From positions 6,015,011 through 6,024,244 of the forward strand of contig CP070627.1 of NCBI GenBank assembly GCA_020355945.1: a DNA stretch of 9,234 nt. Reading direction: 5' to 3'. How positions within the stretch are numbered: the first letter of the stretch is position 1; each line of letters begins with the position of its first letter. The DNA is from Candidatus Aminicenantota bacterium. Its GTDB lineage: Bacteria > Acidobacteriota > Aminicenantia > UBA2199. The notes under the pieces are model-generated. The model was not told the DNA's origin, did not search any database, and worked only from the letters and a program-made list of their open reading frames with translations. Position numbers and translations under genes: made by a program. Positions 2,811 through 9,234 of the stretch are shown in pieces.

Positions 2811-5800
2811 ATGAAATTTATCGCTGATTTTCATATCCATTCGCACTACTCAAGGGCTACCAGTAAAGAACTTATCCCCGAATACCTGGAATACTGGGCC
2901 AAACTAAAAGGAATCACCATTGTCGGCACCGGCGACTTTACCCACCCCGGGTGGACAAAAGAACTAAAAGAAAAACTCATACCCGCAGAACAAGGACTCT
3001 TTAAACTAAAAAAAGAATATAGACCAGAAGACCTGGAAACACCCTTTCTTCCCGACAAAGAAGTAAGATTCCTGCTCACCACTGAAATCAGTAACATCTA
3101 TAAAAAAAAAGAACGCGTCCGCAAAGTCCATAATGTCATATTTGCCCCGGATTTCGAGACCGTAGAAAAAATCCAACAAAAACTAACCGCTGTCAACGCC
3201 AATATCACCTCCGACGGCAGACCCATCCTGGGCCTGGATTCCCGCGACCTGCTGGAAATGGTACTGGATGCTAATGAAAAAAATTTCTTTGTTCCTGCCC
3301 ATATCTGGACCCCCTGGTTCTCAGTACTGGGTTCCAAATCAGGTTTCAACTCGATTACCGAATGTTTTGATGACTTAGCCCACCATATCTATGCCGTGGA
3401 AACCGGTCTCTCCACCGACCCACCCATGAATTGGATGTGCAGTTTTTTAGATAACTATACCTTGACCGCCAATTCCGATGCCCATTCACCCGAACGATTG
3501 GGACGCAATTCCAACCGCTTTGATACGGAACTTTCCTATGACGCGATTATTGGTGCCATGAAAACCGGTGATCCCAATCATTTTTTTGGTTCTATTGACC
3601 TCTTCCCCCAGGAAGGCAAATACCACTACGACGGCCACAGGAAATGCAGTATCTGCTGGGACCCGGTGGAAACCCTGAAACACGACAGTATCTGCTCCAA
3701 ATGCGGTAAACCGGTTACCGTAGGCGTAATGAACCGTGTAGTACAATTGTCCGACCGGGAAGATTTGAGCCAAAGACCCAATAGACATCCCTTTCAATCC
3801 ATTATTCCTTTAAAAGAGATGCTAGGTGAACTGGCAGGTGTGGGACCAAACTCTAAAAAAGTGGACCAGACCTATATAGACCTTGTAAAAAAAGGAGTAT
3901 CCGAATTGGAACTGCTGATGGACATTCCTATTGAAGAAATTAAAACCATCGGTGGTGAGGAACTGGCTGAAGCCATATGCCGAATGAGAAACCGGGAAAT
4001 TTATATCCAGGAAGGTTTTGACGGTGAATATGGCATCATAAAAGTATTTGCTGAAGATGAACGTCCTGCTTTGGATTTACAAAATTGCTTATTTAAAGAC
4101 CTGGTAAAACAAGAACGCCGTGTGCCTCCACCCAGGAAGATGATCAATTTCGACCTGGAAGAGTTTCGCCGGTTGACTGAGGTCAAAGCTCTTGAGGTGG
4201 ATCGAGAAGATAAAAAGAAAACGGATAAAAATAAAGTAACACCAGGCTTGAACCCGCAGCAGCAAGAAGCAGTGGAGCATTTTACCGGACCCGCTTTGGT
4301 GATTGCCGGACCCGGCACAGGAAAAACACGAGTGTTAACTTACAGGATTCTACATTTAATCGAAAACAAGAATATCAACCCGGGAAATATCCTGGCAGTT
4401 ACCTTTACCAACAAAGCAGCGGCTGAGATCAGCGAGCGGTTGGAAACACTATTGAAAAACAAATCCATTGCTTCCAAACCCCAGGTTACTACCTTTCATG
4501 CCCTGGGGTATTCCATTTTAAGGGAACAGGACAGGGTTGGAGAAGATCCTGTATCTTCATTTTCTATTCTTGACCCGGAGGATAAGAAGCGGATTATTCA
4601 ACGGTTTCCCGGTATTGAAAAGAGCAGGGTCAGTGGTATAGCCAATGCTATTGAAGAGGCCAAACAGCAATTGAAAAATCCAACGGATTTTGAGACCGAA
4701 AACCCCGAACTGGCAGATATATTTAAGAAGTACCAGGATTATTTAAGAGAGCAAAATATTTATGATCTTGCTGATTTGCTTTATGTGCCGGTGAGACTTT
4801 TTGAGGGCTGCCCGGATATCCTTGATTTTTATAGAGAAAAGTACCAATGGATATTGATTGACGAGTACCAGGACATCAATTATGCCCAGTATAAATTGAT
4901 CCGCAGTTTGATGCCGGATGTGGATGCCAATCTTTGTGCCATTGGTGACCCGGACCAGGCGATTTATGGGTTTCGGGGGGCGGATGTGAGGTTTATCCGG
5001 CGGTTTCAAGAGGATTACCCGGGTGCGGCGGTTTATCGGTTGAAACAGAGTTACCGTTGTTCCGATTCCATACTTAAAGCTTCGGGCAATGTGATGCAGC
5101 GGGTGGTTTCCGATGACGCACTGTTGACGGGTATGGAAGAGGGTGTGAAAATAAAAATCGTTAAGAATAGTACTCACAAGAGTGAAGCGGAGTTTGTGGC
5201 CCGGACTATAGAGCAGATGATGGGTGGTTTGCGGTTTTTTTCTATGGACAGCAGCATTACTGAGGGGCACAAAGAGGGGGAGATTGACAGCCTATCGGAT
5301 TTCGTGGTGCTTTGCCGGGTGAAAGGCCAGATGGAAGCCCTGGAAAAGGCGTTTATGGACCATAGTATCCCGTATCAGATTGTTGGGGAAGAACCTTTTT
5401 TTAAACAGGAACCCATTTGTTCTATTATTGACTTGTTGAAATTCTCCCGCAATCCTAAAAACACGATTTTGAAAGATAAGCTGATAGAAAAGGAGATTGT
5501 CACGCCATTGGAGCTGGGTGCTCTAAAAAACATTGTGGGTGGGAATTCTGTTAAAGAGATGATAGTAAATCTTGTGAATACTTATTTTAGCGATATAAAA
5601 GAAGTCGATCCTGATGGGCAGGTTGAATTTAATCAAAAGTTTTTGCAGGGGTCCAGGGGACGGTTTTTTCAAAAAGAGTCCCCTGATTTTAAGCGGTTAT
5701 TGGATTTGGTGGGGGATTATGGTAATGATCTGAATGGATTTTTGCGGTTTACTGCGCTAGGTACGGCGGTGGACACGTATCGGCCGGATTTGGAGCAGGT

Positions 5801-6131
5801 GACGTTGATGACACTTCATGGGGCTAAGGGTTTGGAGTTTAAAGCGGTGTTTATAGTGGGGTGTGAGGAGGGGTTACTTCCTTACTCTCTTTTTAAGAGT
5901 CAAACTTCTGACCCGGAGGAGGAGCGGCGTTTGCTTTATGTGGGGATGACGCGGGCGAAGAAGTTTTTGTTTCTTTCTCATGCGGAGAAGCGGTTTTTGT
6001 TGGGCAGGGAGTATAAGTTAGGGCGCAGTTTGTTTCTTAATCGTATTGAGCGGGAGTTGATCGAGTTATCGCAGCAGGAGAAGAAGAAAGCGAAAGAGCC
6101 GATACAGCGTACGTTATTTGATTTAAAATAA
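2811..6131 (+). CDS. Endonuclease Q-type PHP nuclease fused to UvrD/PcrA-family DNA helicase
   Basis: 1106 residues from ATG 2811; MKFIADFHIHSHYS matches the natural EndoQ N-terminus, although the ribosome site (TAGG near 2804) is weak. Residues 1-425 are an EndoQ/PHP module: H8, H10, D42, H45, E92, H107, H164 and the NSDAH motif at 221-225 are probable metal ligands. A zinc knuckle, CxxC at 279/282 and CxxC at 295/298, follows. EndoQ nicks DNA 5' of deaminated bases and abasic sites. Residues 426-478 are a charged linker. Residues 479-1075 carry all SF1A helicase motifs: Q motif LNPQQQEAV, Walker A GPGTGKT (500-506), TFTNKAAAEI, DEYQD (684-688), GDPDQAIYGFRGAD, LKQSYRC, LMTLHGAKGLEF and EERRLLYVGMTRAK. 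The C-terminal QRTLF at 1099-1103 resembles a beta-clamp-binding pentapeptide. There is no frameshift at the junction, so the fusion is intact. Cytoplasmic repair role inferred from the two families. Confidence 0.95.
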   Translation: MKFIADFHIHSHYSRATSKELIPEYLEYWAKLKGITIVGTGDFTHPGWTKELKEKLIPAEQGLFKLKKEYRPEDLETPFLPDKEVRFLLTTEISNIYKKKERVRKVHNVIFAPDFETVEKIQQKLTAVNANITSDGRPILGLDSRDLLEMVLDANEKNFFVPAHIWTPWFSVLGSKSGFNSITECFDDLAHHIYAVETGLSTDPPMNWMCSFLDNYTLTANSDAHSPERLGRNSNRFDTELSYDAIIGAMKTGDPNHFFGSIDLFPQEGKYHYDGHRKCSICWDPVETLKHDSICSKCGKPVTVGVMNRVVQLSDREDLSQRPNRHPFQSIIPLKEMLGELAGVGPNSKKVDQTYIDLVKKGVSELELLMDIPIEEIKTIGGEELAEAICRMRNREIYIQEGFDGEYGIIKVFAEDERPALDLQNCLFKDLVKQERRVPPPRKMINFDLEEFRRLTEVKALEVDREDKKKTDKNKVTPGLNPQQQEAVEHFTGPALVIAGPGTGKTRVLTYRILHLIENKNINPGNILAVTFTNKAAAEISERLETLLKNKSIASKPQVTTFHALGYSILREQDRVGEDPVSSFSILDPEDKKRIIQRFPGIEKSRVSGIANAIEEAKQQLKNPTDFETENPELADIFKKYQDYLREQNIYDLADLLYVPVRLFEGCPDILDFYREKYQWILIDEYQDINYAQYKLIRSLMPDVDANLCAIGDPDQAIYGFRGADVRFIRRFQEDYPGAAVYRLKQSYRCSDSILKASGNVMQRVVSDDALLTGMEEGVKIKIVKNSTHKSEAEFVARTIEQMMGGLRFFSMDSSITEGHKEGEIDSLSDFVVLCRVKGQMEALEKAFMDHSIPYQIVGEEPFFKQEPICSIIDLLKFSRNPKNTILKDKLIEKEIVTPLELGALKNIVGGNSVKEMIVNLVNTYFSDIKEVDPDGQVEFNQKFLQGSRGRFFQKESPDFKRLLDLVGDYGNDLNGFLRFTALGTAVDTYRPDLEQVTLMTLHGAKGLEFKAVFIVGCEEGLLPYSLFKSQTSDPEEERRLLYVGMTRAKKFLFLSHAEKRFLLGREYKLGRSLFLNRIERELIELSQQEKKKAKEPIQRTLFDLK

Positions 6132-6177: not shown

Positions 6178-7356
6178 TTGAGAAAACGGACCACGGATTC
6201 TTCACATGTTTCACGGTCCAGGAGCAAGTGGAAAAAAACTTTCAAAAAACTTTGCCTCAGGGAAAAACTTTGCCAAAAACTTCAAAAACTTTGCCTGGCA
6301 CCAAAATATTTGCCGCCTCAGGGAAAAACTTTGCCTGGCACCCAAAATATTTGCCGGGAGATAGAAGATGAATTTTGGGAAGCTGTTGGGCACCAGAATT
6401 TGGGATATGTGCTGGCCTTCCAGGGCAGGGTAAAGAGGGTAAAAAGTGACAGCCCCTGTGCCACCTGTGCCGAAGGGGAATGTGCAAAGGCATTTAGGTT
6501 ATTTGAAAAAAATAACTTTATTCAATCTTTGAGTGTTGTTTCCGCCCAACGCTCTCTTTCCGCCCTGGTGCAAGCGCGGCTGGCTGCCGTGCTGCCCGAG
6601 GAAAAAAATCATGCCGCGGGTCACACCCGGGAGGCAGTGGCACAGGCCCGGAAGGCACTGGAATTTGCAGAAAAGACAGCAAAAATACAATACCCCTATC
6701 CGCGGGATTTTGTTCGGGCCTATTGGCTGCTGGGAGAGGCATTGGTGCAATGCCGGTTAGGCCCGGATCCCGGGCAGGTGAAATCCTTTGAAATTCCTTT
6801 TTATGACGAGCATTTCCAGCAGCAGGTGGAGTCAGTGAAAATGGACAAAAGCAGCCAATGGGCCGCGGCAGAGCGCTGCCTCACCGAAGCCCTGCGCCGC
6901 TGCCGCAAAGTCAACCTGGTGGAATTGGAACTCGATATATTGCTGGCTCATGCGCGGCTGGAATGGGCAAAAATATCTTCTCTACCGGGAAACCAACGCT
7001 GTGATTCTCTCCCGGCCGGTGAAACCACTCTTAAAGAGGCCCTGGAAATTGCCCAACGTGCCGGGTATCGACTCAAACTGGCAGACCTCCACCTCTTCTG
7101 CGGCCAGGTCCTGCTGCAATTAAAAGAAAAAACAACACTGCTGGGTCTAAATGCCCATGACCATCTGCAAAAAACCAAAGAATACGCTTTAGATGTCTCT
7201 GAATTTTCCCATCTCTATCAATCGCCCAACCCTGATTTTTATAAGGGAATCCCGGAATACCAGATGCTAAAACGCGGCATGACCAAAGAAGAACGTATAA
7301 AAAATGGTTATTGGCCGGCTTACCGCATCGCTGAACACTTAGGTGCAGCGGTATAA
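6178..7356 (+). CDS. TPR-like repeat protein, probably a 5'-truncated remnant
   Basis: The nominal start is a TTG at 6178 without a ribosome site; the frame is open back to 6127, and there is no in-frame ATG in the first 200 codons. Residues 1 to about 60 derive from tandem DNA repeats (6254-6356) whose copies are read in different frames, so this part is probably not a genuine protein segment. From about 6361 (EDEFWEAVGHQNLGYVLAFQG) the product is helical and alanine/leucine-rich. It has degenerate TPR-like units such as VRAYWLLGEALVQC, WAAAERCLTEALRRC and LKEALEIAQRAGYRLKLADL. The tail is KEERIKNGYWPAYRIAEHLG. Similar repeats form the C-terminal sensor of large NTPase-TPR proteins, so I infer the 3' end of such a gene, deprived of its N-terminus. 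It could also be a short standalone TPR protein. TPRs act as protein-protein scaffolds; no enzyme domain is seen. Confidence 0.6.
   Translation: MRKRTTDSSHVSRSRSKWKKTFKKLCLREKLCQKLQKLCLAPKYLPPQGKTLPGTQNICREIEDEFWEAVGHQNLGYVLAFQGRVKRVKSDSPCATCAEGECAKAFRLFEKNNFIQSLSVVSAQRSLSALVQARLAAVLPEEKNHAAGHTREAVAQARKALEFAEKTAKIQYPYPRDFVRAYWLLGEALVQCRLGPDPGQVKSFEIPFYDEHFQQQVESVKMDKSSQWAAAERCLTEALRRCRKVNLVELELDILLAHARLEWAKISSLPGNQRCDSLPAGETTLKEALEIAQRAGYRLKLADLHLFCGQVLLQLKEKTTLLGLNAHDHLQKTKEYALDVSEFSHLYQSPNPDFYKGIPEYQMLKRGMTKEERIKNGYWPAYRIAEHLGAAV
6254..6356. repeat. Imperfect tandem repeats with a 40- to 60-base spacing
   Basis: A 21-bp block beginning GCCTCAGGGAAAAACTT is exact at 6254-6274 and 6315-6335. 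A longer block, AAAAACTTTGCCTGGCACC followed by AAAATATTTGCCG, occurs at 6284-6315 (32 nt) and 6324-6356 (33 nt, one extra C). The one-base length difference puts the copies in different reading frames, which argues that the block is non-coding DNA that merely happens to be open. Confidence 0.75.
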
Positions 7357-8178: not shown

Positions 8179-9234
8179 GTGCGGCTCCTGGAATCCTCTA
8201 TCGAAAAGTTTAAAAAGAAAACAGGTTTTACCCTGCCCAATATAGAGCCTGAAGGTATGAACCTATGGAATTTAAAGCAATTTGACCTGGCTGTTAATAT
8301 CTTTAATCGTGTAATTGATATAATCAGTGCTAGCCGTTATAAACAGCCTCAAAAAGATGATTTGAAGAACGCATTGGCATACCTTTTTGAAAAAGCATTA
8401 CCTTTTTTTGTTGATGGCATGGATAAAAATCCGATTCATCACAATGTCCAGGTTGTTGAGAATATGCTGATAATTGCTATCCAGGAAACAAAATCACACC
8501 GCCTCGATAAATCCTACAAATTTGTAAGAAAAGCTGCGGTTCTTGCTTTACTACATGATATAGGCAGTGGTTTTTCTAATCCTGGTCTCCGGAAAATTAA
8601 AAGCAGTGATATTAAAGATCGAGAACAAGAGTTATTTAAGGGAGAAATGCCAAAAGAAGAAATTGAGAAAGAGATCAGTGGTTTAATAGAAAAAGCCGTG
8701 GAATATCGCATGGTACATATGATAGAAGGAGCGAAGATTGCAGAAAATTTATTGAACGAATTTAATCGTGATCAAAAAAAATTTAACGGGGTAACTTTTA
8801 ATGAAAGGGATATCCAGGACATAAAAAAATGTATTGAAAGGCATGATCTTCCCTGTATTGCAGAATACTATGTTACGCTGGGAAAACCCTGTAATAAGAA
8901 TTACTTGATTCAATTAGATAATCCCCTGGCTGTTATTCTTAGAGAGGCGGATAGATTGTGGATGGTTTCCAAAGAAGGCCTGGAAAAGGACTTATTTGAG
9001 GATTTAGAGAAAAACAAGAAACCCGAGCCTCTTCTAAAATTAAAGCATAATGTCAATAGATTCAAAGAGGAAACACTTTTCCGGACTAAATCCGGTTTAA
9101 AATTGTTAAAACAATACCTATTGCAAAGAATTGATGAATTAAACATCAAGTACGATCGAAAGAATACAAATATAATAGAATTCGTTTTACAAAAAGAAAA
9201 TGGGGTCGGTGCGTGGGAATGTTGGAATGTGAGC
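8179..9234 (+). CDS. HD-domain metal-dependent phosphohydrolase (C-terminus cut by window edge)
   Basis: Open from GTG 8179 to the right edge, exactly 352 codons without a stop, so the protein is incomplete. Residues 1-80 are a helical lead-in with no motif I recognise. Residues about 85-262 form an HD domain: H87/H88 in NPIHHNVQVVENML, the H126-D127 doublet in LLHDIG, H180 in MVHMIEGAKIAENLL, H222 in CIERHD and D258 in READRL. That set is enough to bind one or two metals. HD enzymes cleave phosphoester bonds in nucleotides, cyclic dinucleotides or nucleic acids; the substrate here cannot be read. The rest is a lysine/glutamate-rich helical segment with QYLLQRIDELNIKY near 313-326. The gene is AT-rich and starts a plus-strand unit divergent from the toxin-antitoxin remnant, with an inverted repeat ahead of it. 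Catalytic domain certain, role unknown. Confidence 0.85.
   Translation, partial: MRLLESSIEKFKKKTGFTLPNIEPEGMNLWNLKQFDLAVNIFNRVIDIISASRYKQPQKDDLKNALAYLFEKALPFFVDGMDKNPIHHNVQVVENMLIIAIQETKSHRLDKSYKFVRKAAVLALLHDIGSGFSNPGLRKIKSSDIKDREQELFKGEMPKEEIEKEISGLIEKAVEYRMVHMIEGAKIAENLLNEFNRDQKKFNGVTFNERDIQDIKKCIERHDLPCIAEYYVTLGKPCNKNYLIQLDNPLAVILREADRLWMVSKEGLEKDLFEDLEKNKKPEPLLKLKHNVNRFKEETLFRTKSGLKLLKQYLLQRIDELNIKYDRKNTNIIEFVLQKENGVGAWECWNVS

Follow-up and report, generated by a model that had tools for sequence, protein, structure and literature searches.

The question raised by this locus is what a DNA-damage nuclease and a DNA helicase can do when they are encoded as one polypeptide. The window analysed here is a stretch of 9234 nucleotides from Candidatus Aminicenantota bacterium (contig CP070627.1, positions 6,015,011–6,024,244); the contig has a stated length of 9.13 Mb, which is large compared with Aminicenantes-like relatives. 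In the window, a single frame of 1106 amino acids (aa) on the forward strand (2811..6131) encodes an EndoQ-type nuclease followed by a UvrD/PcrA-type helicase. A first-pass annotation of this DNA had described an EndoQ module in frame with a helicase of superfamily 1A (SF1A); this was confirmed, and both the active-site residues and the helicase motifs are intact. Its domain layout was right as to nuclease and helicase, but it overlooked two sites of the form Q-x-x-L-F, one behind the nuclease core and one at the C-terminus. The fusion is real, common and conserved, and it is a variant of the EndoQ kind. An enzyme of nucleotide incision repair that is tethered to the sliding clamp is probably the best explanation of these features. 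Among the papers listed by searches of the open-licence PMC literature, none names an EndoQ–helicase fusion in its title or at the start of its abstract, and a search for TIGR00375 likewise gave 0 papers.

The EndoQ half was compared with PfuEndoQ. According to the available excerpts of PMC8307549, Glu76, His84 and His139 of PfuEndoQ bind the catalytic zinc, alanine at any one of these positions abolishes cleavage, and thymine and adenine are kept out by His139, Gly169 and Ser171. The counterparts of these residues are listed in Table 1. A four-cysteine zinc cluster was proposed as a possible EndoQ signature in the excerpts of PMC4357722; the window protein has cysteines at 279, 282, 295 and 298, the second of which is cysteine in just 42 of the 81 aligned rows. 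The fusion shares with the described endonucleases Q (PfuEndoQ, TkoEndoQ and Bacillus EndoQ; TIGR00375) the fold, the catalytic ligands, the base-selection residues, the SDAH motif and a clamp-type box behind the nuclease core. It differs in its helicase, which the enzymes described in the available excerpts apparently do not have, in a histidine (H276) that replaces the first zinc cysteine of Pfu, and in a score of 167 bits, which is below the TIGR00375 cut-off of 326.6. On this score, the EndoQ half is best placed as a related group outside the curated model. One relative of 1451 aa (P0066) carries about 340 additional residues near 191–201, at the ETGLS motif, with a precomputed match to PF14528, which we take to be the LAGLIDADG endonuclease domain; these extra residues are probably an intein.

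The helicase half carries motifs Q, I, Ia, II, III, IV, V and VI, the full set of the UvrD/PcrA/Rep SF1A helicases, which move 3' to 5'. Both the EndoQ and the UvrD fold were recovered in the structure model, with flexible linker stretches at 421–440 and 471–480. A missing 2B domain was considered and is not supported, since the model aligns along UvrD. Unlike the known helicases of this type, the fusion helicase forms a clade of its own, ends in a Q..LF tail and scores below the cut-offs for PcrA (TIGR01073, 443 vs. 911 bits) and UvrD (TIGR01075, 327 vs. 1144 bits). Neither half appears to be dead, and nothing in their residues suggests inactivation.

Table 1. Features of the EndoQ–UvrD fusion; positions are those of the window, and residue conservation was counted over the 81 rows of the fusion alignment.
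Feature	Position	Strand	Conservation and remarks
EndoQ–UvrD fusion gene, 1106 aa	2811..6131	+	
EndoQ nuclease part, residues 1–415	2811..4055	+	
E92 (Pfu E76), catalytic zinc ligand	3084..3086	+	kept in 81/81; role per excerpts of PMC8307549
H107 (Pfu H84), catalytic zinc ligand	3129..3131	+	kept in 81/81; role per excerpts of PMC8307549
H164 (Pfu H139), catalytic zinc ligand and base selection	3300..3302	+	81/81; role per excerpts of PMC8307549
ETGLS, 197–201; G199 and S201 (Pfu G169 and S171), base selection	3399..3413	+	E197, G199 and S201 invariant in 81 rows
SDAH motif, 222–225	3474..3485	+	81/81 at each residue
Structural zinc site, H276, C279, C295, C298	3636..3704	+	each residue 81/81
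Inner clamp-type motif QNCLF, 424–428	4080..4094	+	L 79, F 80, Q 53 of 81
Linker segment MINFDLEEFRRL, 444–455	4140..4175	+	similar segment in 60/81 fusions
UvrD/PcrA-type helicase, about residues 479–1089	4245..6077	+	
Walker A GPGTGKT, 500–506	4308..4328	+	
Motif II IDEYQD, 683–688	4857..4874	+	
C-terminal clamp-type motif QRTLF, 1099–1103	6105..6119	+	Q 80, L 75, F 79 of 81

The sequence Q-x-x-L-F is the consensus of bacterial beta-clamp binding. A strict Q..[LMI]F motif was found within the final 25 aa of 160 of the 171 relatives; elsewhere in these proteins it occurs in 67 of 7242 windows of 25 residues, and shuffling yields it in 1.4% of cases. The C-terminal motif persisted after duplicates were removed (156 of 167 distinct proteins) and among representatives at 60% identity (58 of 67); QLSLF, QRSLF and QLKLF are typical forms in relatives. 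A C-terminal Q..LF is absent from all 19 free UvrD-type helicases whose stop is visible; 17 of the 19 belong to fusion genomes, and the sequence of one (L123) is masked in part. Both clamp-type sites fall in low-confidence stretches of the structure model, with a predicted local distance difference test (pLDDT) value of about 45 at 1091–1106.

At 11 of the 17 standalone EndoQ loci, the protein finishes at the position of the inner motif with QKSLF, QLKLF or a similar sequence. The excerpts of PMC4858679 cite a motif of the beta-clamp type for bacterial EndoQ and describe for archaeal EndoQ a C-terminal PCNA box that is required for PCNA binding and stimulation. Taken together, these endings and the archaeal box make it probable that the inner site is the tail of EndoQ itself; the outer site was probably acquired with or after the fusion. 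As in the PCNA–EndoQ complex of Thermococcales (same excerpts), EndoQ would sit on a sliding clamp via a short Q-type box. In that complex, however, the clamp is PCNA and not the beta clamp, EndoQ has a single box, and its chain holds no helicase; clamp binding was measured there, whereas for the fusion we infer it. One standalone EndoQ (L080:2169-5404, in a record titled Nealsonbacteria) ends in QKTLF and is directly followed by an NAD-dependent DNA ligase gene.

In the proposed mechanism, the EndoQ half would flip out a deaminated base or an abasic site and nick the strand just 5' of the lesion, so that a 3'-OH remains. With the 3'-to-5' movement expected of an SF1A enzyme, the helicase half would load at the nick on the undamaged strand, move past the lesion and peel off the lesion-bearing strand ahead of a polymerase. 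The two Q..LF sites would keep the enzyme on the beta clamp with the polymerase following, a flap nuclease and a ligase would complete the repair, and the fusion would act alongside repair initiated by uracil-DNA glycosylase (UDG), not in its stead. Nicking specificity, polarity, clamp binding and the order of steps are inferred from anatomy and conservation. Nicking followed by unwinding, as the first-pass annotation had it, is the natural reading of an intact EndoQ site and SF1A motifs in one chain, while the idea of a self-contained machine is doubtful, as the presence of two clamp-type motifs suggests that the enzyme cooperates with the sliding clamp.

According to the excerpts of PMC4357722, EndoQ incises on the 5' side of the lesion, and the nick ends in a 3'-OH. 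Two routes after the nick were drawn there by the discoverers of EndoQ, namely displacement by a polymerase, or removal by a helicase after cuts by EndoQ and EndoV. The fusion with its clamp-type sites fits a merger of both routes without EndoV. It hints at which partners evolution chose after the EndoQ nick, a step that otherwise is still a model, and it allows the pathway to be tested with a single purified protein together with a clamp and a polymerase. Slightly below even confidence, we tentatively propose a widespread, undescribed bacterial enzyme that would combine lesion-specific incision, unwinding and two-point clamp docking in one chain. Such an enzyme would have arisen once from EndoQ and a UvrD-type helicase and would have spread through many phyla, coexisting with UDG; with its two sites it could occupy both pockets of the beta ring and pass the nick directly to the polymerase.

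In the protein search, 7994 candidates were scored and 7985 matched. The architecture search for EndoQ joined to UvrD that had been suggested along with the original description found the fusion to be very common: both domains are present in all of the 120 matches listed of the 7985 (P0012 being partial). A frame of at least 1000 aa with both signatures was found at 53 of 80 loci. By record title, fusions occur in Aminicenantes, Bacteroidota, Calditrichota, Cloacimonadota, Deltaproteobacteria, Desulfobacterales, Elusimicrobia, Omnitrophota, Spirochaetes, Brocadiia and KSB3; such titles are unsafe, as one record titled Armatimonadetes falls in the phylum sample of a Cloacimonadota genome. In the order of a genome titled Desulfobacterales (G021), 85 of 96 genomes match EndoQ (one weakly), and a frame of at least 1000 aa lies at the EndoQ match in 71 of 96, the helicase part not having been checked there. 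Such frames were found in 11 of 78 genomes in the phylum sample of G012 (Cloacimonadota), where a contig edge truncates a twelfth; the phylum sample of G001 (Aminicenantes) has them in 2 of 119 genomes. EndoQ is described as mainly archaeal with some bacterial homologues in the available excerpts of the EndoQ papers, and the fusion reveals a broader bacterial presence than these describe.

In a helicase tree of 61 rows (L114 was left out, having been missed by the motif pattern), the helicases of 37 fusions and five fusion-like free helicases form one clade with a support of 99, apart from 19 free UvrD-type helicases. A single EndoQ clade for all fusions was not found. The EndoQ tree, in which 51 of 88 rows are fused, needs nine changes of the fused label, and EndoQ halves of fusions intermingle with helicase-less EndoQ; this is a quick tree with weak deep forks. 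One old fusion with later losses of the helicase fits best and is likely, given the single clade of the helicase halves; a history in which sister helicases were fused repeatedly would be less likely. Among 87 short entries, 13 combine EndoQ, a fusion-like linker and a C-terminal Q..LF without a helicase, and fusion-type helicases without EndoQ also exist (P0245, P0252). The linker segment that resembles INFDLxEYRxL occurs in helicase-less relatives too.

Thirty genomes with the fusion were searched for other repair genes. A UDG-family gene (PF03167 match) is present in 30 of 30, so that replacement of UDG by the fusion is rejected; the earlier proposal of an alternative to glycosylase-initiated repair is not supported in the sense of a replacement, and the question whether fusion genomes lack UDG is answered in the negative. 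UvrB exceeds its cut-off in 25 of the 30 genomes, with pieces in G013 and G015 and weak matches alone in G003, G018 and G024, which, with UvrB as the one UvrABC component searched for, speaks against the fusion as a stand-in for UvrABC. Nor is there support for a replacement of PcrA/UvrD, since 25 of the 30 have, apart from the fusion, a UvrD-type frame 600 to 1000 aa long; in G027, stops are marked inside the separate UvrD/PcrA match. From the UDG, UvrB and separate UvrD-type frames in the fusion genomes it therefore follows that the fusion is an additional pathway beside UDG-initiated repair. As to whether such genomes lack a standalone EndoQ, 29 of 30 show no second EndoQ match among the matches listed (to about E 1e-7); the exception is G004, with an EndoQ piece at a contig edge. 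EndoV (PF04493) was matched in nine of the 30 without a comparison group, so no pattern is claimed.

In the phylum sample of G012, the PF03167 match is present in 76 of 78 genomes, of which 11 carry the fusion. A UDG-family match is absent from four of 34 genomes (G030, G031, G033 and G034), each with a standalone EndoQ. Three of these, G030, G031 and G034 (loci L073, L075 and L079), are genomes of 500–600 kb.

No operon shared across phyla was found among 81 loci, and recurring neighbours are confined to clades. One neighbour recurs in 14 of the 81 loci and another in 13; a single member of the first was tested and is DnaN, and the tested member of the second is GyrB. Encoded on the opposite strand, dnaN is located upstream, less than 1 kb away in nine of the 13 loci in which the distance could be measured. 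Downstream of the fusion, two Cloacimonadota loci encode a methyltransferase linked to a UDG-family domain (L105:7320-8375 and L106:7964-9064, at distances of 12 and about 960 bases).

Several observations weigh against the clamp-tethered repair enzyme. The presence of UDG throughout leaves the need for the fusion unexplained, and the dnaN neighbourhood is confined to one group. Helicase-less relatives demonstrate that the helicase can be lost; at the dnaN–gyrB place, L077:6001-7317 has EndoQ with no helicase match, and L072:5941-7783 has EndoQ with a small helicase remnant. The inner motif is strict in 50 of 81 fusions within its region. A C-terminal Q..LF is missing from six of 17 standalone EndoQ loci and from five of five distant homologues, and just 20 of the 87 short EndoQ entries finish in a relaxed motif, many others resembling fusions cut at contig ends.

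The clamp-type sites and the dnaN neighbourhood would equally suit a helicase for conflicts of replication and transcription, in which EndoQ would be mainly an apurinic/apyrimidinic (AP) or structure-specific nuclease and repair of deaminated bases would be secondary. UvrD-type helicases take part in many pathways, and uracil is already covered by the UDG-family genes. However, the residues that exclude thymine and adenine in PfuEndoQ are invariant in the fusions, and a separate UvrD/PcrA frame of at least 600 aa is available for such work in the 25 genomes mentioned above, which makes this reading rather unlikely. An antiviral role is less likely still. The fusion would attack foreign DNA containing uracil or unusual bases, with the helicase aiding destruction and UDG-inhibiting phages as the target. 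The available part of a review suggests that Bacillus EndoQ may have an antiviral role, and in PADLOC the helicase half matches best to GajB of the Gabija system, itself a UvrD-type helicase (E 1e-88). PADLOC matches nevertheless go to UvrD-type helicases generally, and none lies over the EndoQ half among the best 25 of 55. Unlike GajB, the fusion helicase is joined to EndoQ, and no GajA was seen in the window, where the four neighbouring proteins scanned have no PADLOC match (the protein at 2-1012, outside that scan, has VIT/VWA domains). Defence genes usually show a patchy spread, unlike the frames counted by length in the order of G021, and in one group the gene lies near dnaN and gyrB. Just as improbable is a chain with no coupled mechanism, in which co-expression or common recruitment to the clamp would be the reason why two repair enzymes of the same pathway were joined, each of them acting alone, since one helicase clade retains the fusion across many phyla, even though the flexible linker and the separately occurring fusion-type helicases and tailed EndoQ proteins would suit it.

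The other genes of the window are the VIT/VWA protein at 2-1012 and a VWA protein at 1080-2246 on the reverse strand, and, on the forward strand, an open reading frame without a Pfam match at 6178-7356 and an HD-domain protein at 8179-9234.
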